From: Pocillopora verrucosa
Taxonomy: Eukaryota > Cnidaria > Anthozoa > Scleractinia > Pocilloporidae
Direction of reading: 5' to 3'
Assembly: GCF_036669915.1 (NCBI RefSeq)
Contig: NC_089317.1
Span: 4,930,571 to 4,994,570, forward strand
Length of the DNA: 64,000 nt
Position 1 is the first letter of the stretch, and every line of letters starts with the position of its first letter. Shown one piece after another: positions 25,352 to 62,579 of the stretch. Position numbers and translations under genes: made by a program. The notes under the pieces are model-generated. The model had not been told where the DNA came from. It saw only the letters and a program-made list of their open reading frames with translations, and did no database searches.

Positions 25352-25740
25352 TTATTTAGTATCTGGCGCAAATATCCCTTTTAAATATAAATAGAGACGT
25401 CTTAATTTGGCACTAAATGTAAGATTCGAGGCATCAGTTGAGTGAGTTTTACGAGTTTCTTCCTCCGTCTCCTCAGGATGTGAAACAATGGACGTGGGTT
25501 CCTGAACTTTATTCGTCAGGGCTAATTGAGAGGTGGTATTTAGTAACTGCGACAACAAAAAAAGAGGGGCTCTGACAGGGAAAGAGAGCAATTTCCCAAT
25601 AAGGCTTAAAAACCGTTGACTCTTGCGAACACAGCGGCCATGTACAACATCCTTTCCGTCCTCTGAAAAGAAAAACTCCCAATCTCCATTTCCAGCTTGA
25701 ATGATAAACTGAAGAATGAGGTTTTGAAATTTGAAGAGTG
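25352..25740 (-). CDS. GDWxYF-family exon, divergent member
   Basis: An open frame of about 130 codons that begins at a possible acceptor (ttgtag, 25741) and ends in a stop at 25352. It carries IIQAGNGDWEFFFSEDGKD and CVRKSQRF, aligning with KSGAGDWEYYFSQDDN and C.RKPW of the copy at 36.6 kb, followed by a hydrophobic stretch (LLSFPVRAPLFLLSQLL) where that copy has its presumed TM helix. A 50-residue tail rich in Glu and Thr is unique to it. Only the second half of the domain is present. Upstream in the same orientation lie a zinc-knuckle-like exon piece (about 27.0 kb) and an intact first exon (29864-29989), so this may be the last exon of a minus-strand gene. Function unknown. Confidence 0.5.
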
Positions 25741-25759
25741 CTACAAAGGGTTTTTTTGT

Positions 25760-26200
25760 TTACAGTATTCAGCTTTCTACGTATTTGTTCAAGCGTGAAA
25801 CACGCAAGTTTGTGTACACACCGTCACATTACCGTGTTTATGTTTCTGCACGTACACACTACCTTTAATCAAGATTTATTTTCCGTCAAATCCTGTTAAA
25901 CATCGTTTGCAAAGCTTTCTCACGCGCTCAAATTAAATTCGATGCTTGACAGTGGTGCGACAGTTTGTCTACTTAAAGTTGTATACTTCACGCGTGAACA
26001 AACAACGAAAAATTGAGCCGTTCACTACGTTTTGTTTGGAAACGAATTGCCGCCACAAAACTTGTTGATCAAATTAAAGATTCTGATCCCGAAATTTAGT
26101 AGTGACAGCCTGGGAAAAAATTAGCCTTAATAAAAGCGTACGAATTTACCCTGAAAGCTGAAAAATTATTTTGAACCCTGATAATTAAAACAGGGAATCT
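25760..26200. other. Intergenic, nothing recognised
   Basis: AT-rich sequence between the divergent GDWxYF exon and the minisatellite. No domain-bearing frame, RNA gene or repeat was recognised, although the upstream part of the GDWxYF domain could be hidden here as a further exon. Confidence 0.35.
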
Positions 26201-26218
26201 TTAAAAGCGGGGAATCTT

Positions 26219-26462
26219 TCCCCCATTCCCCCATTCCCCCATTCCCCCATTCCTCCATTCCTCCATTCCTCCATTCCTCCATTCCCCCATTCCTCCATTC
26301 CCCCATTCCTCCATTCCCCCATTCCTCCATTCCTCCATTCCTCCATTCCCCCATTCCCCCATTCCTCCATTCCTCCATTCCTCCATTCCTCCATTCCTCC
26401 ATTCCTCCATTCCTCCATTCTCCCATTCCCACATTCCCACATTCCCACATTCTCCCATTCCC
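26219..26462. repeat. 8-bp minisatellite (attcctcc / attccccc)
   Basis: About 30 head-to-tail 8 bp units of two main variants, attcctcc and attccccc, with a few attcccac and attctccc units at the right end. The minus strand is open in three frames and reads as Gly-Met-Glu-Trp-Arg-Asn-type repeats, a consequence of the repeat and not evidence of a gene. Length is likely polymorphic. Confidence 0.9.
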
Positions 26463-26479
26463 CGTTCCCTATTTTAAAG

Positions 26480-59860: not shown

Positions 59861-59867
59861 ACTAAAG

Positions 59868-60878
59868 ATGAAACCAGAAACTGAGTGGATTGTTATGACA
59901 GTCCTCTACGCCATCACGATGCTCGTAGCGTTTACAGGGAATAGTTTCCTCATCTACATCGTGTGGAAGAAGCCTGAAGTTAGATCACTGACAAGCTTTA
60001 TGTTCGTCAACATGGCCATCGCTGATTTGCTAGTAACCTTGGTAGTGATGCCCTGGTCAATTTCCGCAATATATACAAGTGGTTTATGGATGATCCCGGG
60101 AGTATTTGGAAAAGTCATGTGCAAAGGTGTTGTATACATTGCTTATGTCACTTTAACAGCATCCATCCTCTGCCTGACGTTCATGGCGATCGACAGGTAC
60201 TATGCCATCGTTCATCCCCTCCGTCGCCATCTTTGGTTTCGAAAGCCTAAACTAACCGTTCCATTTATTTGGATTGGGTCACTGGTCTCCATGTCTATTT
60301 TCCTTGTTATTCAAACCGTGGAGGACTACAATAATTCTTCCTATTGCACGCTATCTGTTTACATCTTGGGTGATCCAGATAGGGCTCTTCGAGGAATATT
60401 CCTCCTCTTTTTCGTCGTCAACTATCTCATCCCCTTGGCCGTTATTTCTTTCCTGTATACCATTACTGCATGGAATTTATGGTTCCATGTTGCACCTGGA
60501 GTGAATACTTTGAGAGGAAATCGAGCGCAGCTAGAAACCTCTAAAAGAAGAGTGGTTCGGATGCTCATTATTGTTACCTGTGCCTTTGCCCTTTGTTGGC
60601 TTCCACCACAAGTGGTCCACATGATGACAGTGATTCACGCATCTAAGGCTTACCTACATATACAGCCGATTGTCAGCTTTGTGTGTTTTTGGTTTGGACA
60701 CGCCAACAGCGCCGTTAACCCATGGCTGTACATTTTTTTGAGCACCAAGATAAATACGGAATTTACTAGGATCGTCAGTAGAAAAAGCAGCCGGTTGCCT
60801 TCAAGTCTCACCATAAAAACATCAGATGCCGTTTTACCACCTGAAGATGAAGCAATCCAGAAAGAATCAAGAATATAA
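59868..60878 (+). CDS. Class A (rhodopsin-like) GPCR, intronless
   Basis: Complete 336-residue seven-helix receptor at the plasma membrane. Visible landmarks: TM1 with GNSFLIYIV, TM2 NMAIADLLVTLVVMPW, ECL1 Trp (SGLWMIPG), Cys at MCKG before TM3, IDRYYAIVHPLRR (DRY variant) at the end of TM3, a Cys in the second extracellular loop (SSYCTLSVY), TM6 CAFALCWLPPQVV and TM7 NSAVNPWLYIF (NPxxY variant NPWLY). The basic loop 3 (TSKRRVVRML) and a Ser-rich tail suggest G-protein coupling and phosphorylation sites. Motifs resemble neuropeptide receptors of the tachykinin, neuropeptide-FF or galanin groups, but the ligand cannot be told. A possible acceptor (aaacag) 20 bases before the ATG means a 5' UTR intron is possible. 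Confidence 0.9.
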   Translation: MKPETEWIVMTVLYAITMLVAFTGNSFLIYIVWKKPEVRSLTSFMFVNMAIADLLVTLVVMPWSISAIYTSGLWMIPGVFGKVMCKGVVYIAYVTLTASILCLTFMAIDRYYAIVHPLRRHLWFRKPKLTVPFIWIGSLVSMSIFLVIQTVEDYNNSSYCTLSVYILGDPDRALRGIFLLFFVVNYLIPLAVISFLYTITAWNLWFHVAPGVNTLRGNRAQLETSKRRVVRMLIIVTCAFALCWLPPQVVHMMTVIHASKAYLHIQPIVSFVCFWFGHANSAVNPWLYIFLSTKINTEFTRIVSRKSSRLPSSLTIKTSDAVLPPEDEAIQKESRI

Positions 60879-61730
60879 TCTCTCTCATAACATGAAACTT
60901 TTATTACTAATTTGGTAACTGTAAGATAAAAATTCGCTTAGAACGGATTTGCGTATTTCTAATTATATAATATAATACAAACACCTATATACGGTTTCAT
61001 AAAAGCTATTGTAATAATCCGAGTAATTGATAATTGCAATTAAATTTCGACAAGAACCGTTCCGTGTGCATACCGTTTTCGCGATAATAATTTAATTTTA
61101 ACTATTTCAGGTTATAATTAGCTGTTTTGAAAGGAGATTTGTAAAAGCCTTCGGTTATGACATACACAATTAAAGCAAAAGAAATACTTATGGACCAAGA
61201 ATCGTCTCATTCCGTTTAGAATGGAGCGCGCCAACCACTTGGCCACCCGATCTCCCTTAAGGTTGTAATATTTGTTCTTTTTTTTGTCTGAATTTGTTCT
61301 GAAATAATACAATCTTGAACAAAAAAAAAAAAGAAAAACAACTGAAAAGGAAAAGAGAAAATGAACCTAATATTCAGCCTTGGACATTTCAGAAGAGTAT
61401 AGAGAAATAGAATTCAATTTTCAGAACTATCCAGCAAATTCTTTTGTTGTTGTTGGTGTCAAACGAGGTATTTCACAGTCATTACCGGCGATCTAGCTAA
61501 TAAGCGAACTAGCTAATTAACGCGCGCGGAAAGCGCAATTCACCTGTCCGCTATCTACTAATTTGGTTTGTTTATTCATAATTTTCTCATTGATACTAAC
61601 CAATCGTTCCTCACAGTTTTCTTTAATTCTGTAGCACACGATGATAGTTTCAGCTGAAATCCAAGTGAGAGCTCTGTGTAATGGGGCGTTAATTTTGTTT
61701 TTTAGGTTTCAAGTGTCATAGGCACAAAAT
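60879..61730. other. GPCR 3' flank; possible SINE remnant
   Basis: AT-rich. Around 61215-61260 the minus strand has TGGCCAAGTGGTTGGCGCG, an A-box-like tRNA fragment, with no convincing B box. An A-run is at 61320-61331. No other gene. Confidence 0.35.
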
Positions 61731-61734
61731 GGGG

Positions 61735-62172
61735 ACAATAAGAAAAAATGAGATTTTCAAGGGGAACTCGGCAATACCTCGACAGAGTACCATAAGAAAT
61801 ATGCACTTTATTTTACAACGAGCAAGCAGCTGAGAACCTGAAAAAATAATCTGAGGCCTCGTTAAGAATTTGAACATCAGACCTTCCCATGGTGCCTTAA
61901 ACTACGGAGCTGCGTTACAAGCCAGTCCAGCATACTGATAAGATCGGAAATCAGTATTTGCTTGAATATTCATCGGAAACTTTCGAAGAGATGGGGGAGA
62001 CTCTGTGACCCTTAGTAGGTGGAGTGGGAACACTCGCCTCCTCATATGTAGTTGTGGCTTGAGTTCGACTCAGCGATTTTGGCGATACTTGTGGGTTGAC
62101 TTGGTTACTGTTTTTTTTTCTTCAGTTATCCTAATTTTTCTCCCAATATTGATAACATCTATATCATTTTAG
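61735..62172 (+). repeat. Duplicated GDWxYF intron segment with tRNA-like piece
   Basis: The block 'caaggggaactcggcaat', 'gaccttcccatggtgcc' and 'agcatactgataagatcgg' matches blocks at 34.8, 38.9-39.07 and (inverted) 29.3-29.48 kb. It precedes the 62.17 kb terminal exon, just as it precedes the family exons elsewhere, so it marks intron sequence of a dispersed gene copy. Confidence 0.55.
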
Positions 62173-62579
62173 GATTATCCAGAAAAAATAAGAATTCCCG
62201 TGAAGAAAATAACCGCGATTGCTCTTGGAGAAGAGGTGGAAAAAAAACAAAACAAGGAACGTCTCAGTGAACACGACGAAACAAGTATCAAATTCCTAGA
62301 AGAGGCCATCAATTGCATACCTCCCGCAATTGAGGATGGAGCTGATTTTGAAAATGCCGCTTTCATTTTTAACCTCCAGCCGGGCAGTTTATTGTTATAG
62401 CAGGAAAGGGGGATTGGCAATATTAATTTTCCGAGGATGGCAGCAACAATATAACCTGTAAATGTGTCCGCAAACCCTGGTTGATGTACCTCTGGAACAA
62501 AGGCACATTTGGTTTTTCTAGTATCACCTTGTTATTGTTTCTTGCTGAAATAGTCATCAAGGCTTTTAGGTCTAATTAA
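62173..62579 (+). pseudogene. GDWxYF-family terminal exon, distant broken copy
   Basis: After acceptor ttttag the frame begins DYPEKIRIPVKKI, then LSEHDETSIKFLEEAINCIP and AAFIFNL. A base loss near 62375 shifts the frame, and in the restored alignment frame a TAA interrupts the GDWQY...FSEDG part. The remaining sequence has KCVRKPWLMYLWN and a hydrophobic end LLLFLAEIVIKAF. It is clearly more diverged from the 32-37 kb copies than they are from each other, so it is an older paralogue. About 60% of residues look shared, judged by eye. Confidence 0.7.

Follow-up and report, generated by a model that had tools for sequence, protein, structure and literature searches.

A domain that recurs within a short stretch of a genome raises the question of what its copies are, members of a working gene family, the debris of an older gene, or passengers of mobile elements. 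This question is addressed here for one 64-kb window (the whole stretch of DNA that was analysed). On balance we lean towards a small, locally duplicated animal gene family, in which the unit of duplication would be a last exon and one copy would still be open and working.

Copies and identity of the domain

Reading frames, tblastn and profile searches revealed five copies of a 106-residue domain at four loci in the window. An earlier note on this DNA had described a repeating unit of about 110 residues at four or more loci; leave-out profiles and tblastn agree on the multi-copy domain and on at least four loci, and the repeating unit stands at the slightly smaller size given above. The copies and the features that belong to them are as follows.

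25352 to 25708, minus strand: copy D5, an exon that carries the final third of the domain and then a longer tail peculiar to this copy (profile, tblastn)
31734 to 32699, plus strand: duplicated unit around D3, which aligns to 35007-35148, 36360-37537 and 37767-37846
32046 to 32487, plus strand: domain copy D3 with tail, its frame broken by one frameshift
36409 to 36650, plus strand: 111-bp tandem repeat of 2.2 copies, repeating intron end, acceptor and exon start
36643 to 37413, plus strand: open last exon, with an acceptor-like AG immediately ahead of 36643, a tandem pair of 106-residue domains, a tail and a stop at 37411-37413
36646 to 36963, plus strand: domain copy D1
36964 to 37281, plus strand: domain copy D2, its DNA 86% identical to D1 and gap-free
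37282 to 37410, plus strand: hydrophobic C-terminal tail of the open frame
40379 to 40689, plus strand: truncated copy with upstream flank, repeat and the first exon residues only
62173 to 62576, plus strand: domain copy D4 with tail, carrying a frameshift and an in-frame stop

A profile built from the tandem pair D1/D2 alone detected the pieces at 32.0 kb (E 1.5e-23 and 8.9e-18), two pieces at 62.2 kb (E 7e-16 and 9.3e-4) and the minus-strand exon at 25.4 kb (E 5.4e-7), while a third short piece at 62.2 kb was not significant (E 0.09). The 25.4 kb copy was also recovered, at E 3.9e-9, by a profile built without it. In the profile search of the window, no additional domain copy rose above the inclusion threshold. 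Two minisatellite copies were considered as working small exons and rejected, the one at 36410-36511 by its profile values (E 0.34 and 0.32) and the one before 31950 because it runs into a stop.

The state of the copies largely agrees with what the earlier note had read from the letters. The copy with two tandem domains is indeed open over 256 codons, and both copies said to be frameshifted are broken: the one at 32.0 kb has a frameshift, and the one at 62.2 kb has an in-frame stop in addition to its frameshift. The 25.4 kb copy is divergent with its own tail, as claimed, but holds only about 32 of the 106 positions (the last third) rather than a full domain. It begins after an acceptor-like AG at a position different from that of the other copies, and neither tblastn nor the profile gave anything above chance for its upstream part on the minus strand. 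A sixth place, at 40379-40689, adds a truncated, flank-only copy to the four loci noted earlier.

Pfam, searched with six pieces of the family, gave no match that passed its curated cut-off, and neither did NCBIfam. The best Pfam match was PTEN2_C2 (E 0.03, below its cut-off), and the Pfam matches included no Ig-type, TIR, NACHT/NB-ARC or lectin domain. Transposase, integrase and reverse transcriptase families gave no convincing Pfam match to the exon; a known transposon protein, which the earlier note had held up as the identity that would speak against its reading, was represented only by Tnp_DNA_bind (E 0.069 over 22 residues, 13.3 bits against a cut-off of 24). The best values elsewhere were chance-like (NCBIfam 0.023, PHROGs 0.03, PADLOC 0.014, phages 2). 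PDB sequences gave no match with the open frame, the best profile value being E 0.99, scans of viral contigs and prokaryote genome contigs yielded no close relative, and the phage search yielded no relative. The window also contains no tRNA gene and gave no match in Rfam. The claim that the domain belongs to no named family thus holds for Pfam, NCBIfam, PHROGs, PADLOC and PDB. "Undescribed" here means absent from the libraries searched, and animal proteomes are outside their scope; because none of them except Pfam and PDB includes animals, these negatives say little about other animals. The motif GDWEYYF was absent from the literature searched, which is no proof that the family is missing from print.

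It is somewhat more probable than not that the family is annotated elsewhere in animals, for example as uncharacterised proteins, and is just missing from Pfam. This is compatible with the other readings and fits the richness of coral genomes in tandemly duplicated genes, which, according to the available part of one source, make up almost a third of predicted genes in two new coral assemblies (PMC10236652). No counterpoint was found, and such annotation would lower the novelty of the family while leaving the preferred explanation intact. The tandemly duplicated coral gene families in the same part of that source resemble the present case in their local tandem copies and their birth and death (PMC10236652). 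The amplified receptor families named there (PMC10236652) carry TIR, NACHT/NB-ARC or lectin domains or are GPCR-like; none of these matched the domain here in Pfam.

The duplicated last exon

At 36.6, 32.0 and 62.2 kb, an acceptor-like AG precedes the domain at the same place and in the same phase, as read from the sequence. Their alignment shows that the copies at 32.0 and 36.6 kb arose by local duplication together with the intron end and the 3' flank, and that what was duplicated is a last exon, not the whole gene. The unit at 31734-32699 also aligns partly to 40379-40689. The 36.6 kb unit has an extra 1.2 kb upstream (35149-36340), the 13-bp ends of which are 92% inverted complements; this segment resembles an insertion, but visual inspection showed no clear target duplication.

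In the 32.0/36.6 kb pair, four noncoding stretches contain 13 gaps against 70 mismatches, one stretch being gap-free, and the 32.0/40.4 kb pair aligns over 119 bases without gaps. Within the coding part, D3 shows three gaps against D1 and one against D2, of which one frameshift is certain and the remainder depends on scoring. The tails at 32.0 and 36.6 kb (four gaps, 75% identity) align worse than the flanks.

The earlier note had also described a membrane-like C-terminus. By the best 19-residue hydropathy value, which was the sole measure used to assess a tail anchor, this description suits the tails at 36.6 kb (1.86), 62.2 kb (1.88) and 25.4 kb (1.53), in which the hydrophobic stretch lies 15, 6 and 66 residues before the end, respectively, but not the tail at 32.0 kb (0.91).

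Codon changes in the open domains

A less favoured reading takes all copies for the decaying debris of an older gene and the 36.6 kb frame for a young pseudogene that has not yet acquired a stop. Two of the four loci are broken, one is partial and a further place is flank-only, all as expected for debris. The open frame itself spans 36634-37410, 259 codons from stop to stop and 256 when counted from the exon start. Among 60 first-order Markov windows the longest run per window averaged 147 codons, and at least one window had a run as long as the frame (largest 265); such a run is rare by chance but not impossible, which leaves room for a pseudogene. No upstream exon for the frame was found in the window, another point on the side of decay. 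Because no methionine occurs before residue 98 of the first domain, a start ahead of that domain needs an upstream exon, while a start at residue 98 would yield little more than the second domain and the tail.

The distribution of changes between D1 and D2 points the other way. These domains differ at 45 of 318 bases, and the differences fall on codon positions 1, 2 and 3 as 23, 17 and 5 (equal-position chi-square p = 0.0037; third positions, binomial p = 0.0012), whereas neutral change spreads evenly over codon positions. The corresponding counts against D3 are 17, 20 and 22 for D1 and 21, 22 and 22 for D2, and here the positions do not differ. Third positions account for 4 of the 38 changes on D1 and D2 alone and for 19 of 36 on the D3 side (Fisher p = 0.00012), in a count that left out seven sites with three different bases. 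The total lack of gaps beside 45 substitutions also speaks against debris; it serves as supporting evidence only, because gaps are unevenly spread in the noncoding and coding comparisons described above.

In a purpose-written codon model (F3x4 frequencies, gene conversion left out), the D1/D2 pair gave a dN/dS of 3.53 (p = 0.006 against 1). When the pair was simulated under neutrality, 2 of 300 runs reached the value observed, one of them with a ratio above 1, which counts against simple decay. A two-ratio model, for which the split into D1 + D2 branches and the rest was picked after the position and Nei-Gojobori counts were known, gave 2.29 on the D1 and D2 branches and 0.52 elsewhere. It beat a single ratio (p = 0.0029; value reached in 0 of 100 simulated nulls), the other branches fell below 1 (p = 0.011), and the D1/D2 branches exceeded 1 within the tree at p = 0.058 (value reached in 5 of 100). 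In a freer codon model the ratio on the D3 branch ran to its bound and is meaningless. The Nei-Gojobori ratio was 2.05 for D1/D2 (bootstrap 0.92-6.8; Fisher p = 0.17, not significant), 0.60 for D1/D3 and 0.69 for D2/D3, neither of the latter significantly off 1. Two results agree with debris: one ratio over all branches was 0.79 and not different from 1 (p = 0.27), and both domains remained stop-free in 17-20% of neutral simulations with 45 changes. All selection tests draw on one 106-codon alignment, in which two of the four copies are broken, and several tests were made with uncorrected p values.

Taken together, the pattern fits diversifying change in a birth-and-death family, as far as one small alignment can suggest. 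The earlier note had named neutral evolution in all copies as an outcome that would undo its proposal; the amino-acid excess in the open domains and the constraint on other branches argue against it, short of excluding it, since the D1/D2 codon models oppose neutrality while the Nei-Gojobori count does not reach significance. We regard the debris reading as unlikely, if still a serious one. The birth and death that the note had proposed is visible in the broken copies alongside the open one, whose function is putative.

A locally duplicated family with a working open copy would have arisen as follows. The duplicated piece would be a last exon that runs from a splice acceptor through a single 106-residue domain and a hydrophobic tail to a stop, and it would have been copied along with the intron end and the 3' flank. 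At 36.6 kb an in-frame doubling would have given the copy its second domain without closing the frame, while of its sisters two were broken and a further one truncated. The open copy may be expressed from an unseen upstream exon, and its product may be membrane-attached through the hydrophobic tail. Between D1 and D2 there are 35 residue differences, 16 of these differences change charge, and 16 lie within residues 1-33 (Fisher p = 0.028, for a cut chosen after the differences had been viewed). The motifs LSEFDQTQVKF, FIFALPG and GDW..YFSQD may form a fixed domain core, and the changing first third of each domain may be a contact surface, varied under pressure from a foreign, symbiont or self partner. 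Taken alone, this contact-surface step is doubtful. The fuller proposal is of an undescribed, membrane-attached animal recognition family, in which diversifying selection would act on the first third as a variable contact face and in-frame domain doubling would provide two different faces per gene; it is more speculative still, and we consider it improbable. Should the open copy prove to be expressed, and should its relatives in other species show this pattern too, the 106-residue profile would be a way into an animal family that is unnamed and evolves fast, and such families can turn out to act in the recognition of microbes, symbionts or self. Otherwise the locus would be a small, neat example of an exon that was duplicated locally and decayed.

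Repeats and neighbouring genes

Longer repeat blocks stand upstream of the domain copies. Ahead of the exon and in its orientation they occupy 30.2-31.8, 34.4-35.1, 38.1-40.5 and 61.75-61.95 kb, with 26.9-30.2 kb on the minus strand as well, an arrangement that invites the reading of the exon as mobile-element cargo and of its copies as products of transposition rather than of gene duplication. The repeat piece ahead of the 62 kb copy shares 84-86% identity with its relatives, against 68-71% for the exon DNA, and the intervening stretch did not align. The repeat piece probably arrived there separately, because it is much more alike than the exon, and the upstream repeat was rejected as a fixed part of the 62 kb unit on the same ground. 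The blocks were also rejected as hidden first exons, since the 133-bp and 119/142-bp blocks lack clear codon periodicity (p 0.058 to 0.956 in seven comparisons) and show stops or poor residue conservation. Cargo is an improbable explanation, given that repeat and exon hardly travelled as one unit at 62 kb, that the two blocks tested give so little sign of coding, that the block at 40719-40970 has no domain copy downstream and that no mobile-element family in Pfam matched the exon.

The window is animal-like, judged by its neighbour genes, among them the following.

2375 to 2839 (within): ZPR1 fragment
14362 to 14943: porin
59868 to 60875: rhodopsin-type receptor

The cluster had been said to adjoin an Ig receptor. 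A scan of the minus strand from 15 to 25 kb did find Ig domains, at about 17861-18121 and at 16570-16695, some 7 kb from the nearest domain copy. Closeness to an Ig gene is weak evidence for an immune role. An immune or self-recognition role would be compatible with the sequence, as one of several readings, and draws on this position and on a modest selection signal. The Ig neighbour brings to mind the allorecognition receptors of Hydractinia, which are clustered and variable. Those receptors are Ig proteins, whereas the domain here matches no immunoglobulin family in Pfam. Coral tachylectin-2 is a putative immunity gene under positive selection, according to the available part of its description (PMC2880987), and there, as here, an amino-acid excess is read as a sign of positive selection. 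It is a lectin, however, and the domain here matches no lectin family in Pfam.

Several further features of the window were observed. Downstream of the 32.0 kb copy, 33125-34307 on the plus strand holds mobile-element remains, presumably Penelope-like, in which one stretch resembles GIY-YIG (Pfam E 0.0039, short of the curated cut-off). The regions 18972-23471 and 44740-48968 form a large same-orientation duplication, about 80-91% identical in several overlapping pieces. The repeat piece at 61750-61947 is common to 29314-29508, 34785-34881 and 38918-39081 and may belong to a short dispersed element. The repeat blocks at 26944-30185 and 30221-31813 stand head to head around 30.2 kb and recur at 34.4-35.1 and 38.1-40.5 kb. 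An inverted pair of 44 identical bases (26482-26525 and 27828-27871) is far more alike than the surrounding repeats, and an array of the octamer TTCCTCCA occupies 26218-26461 with 30.5 copies.
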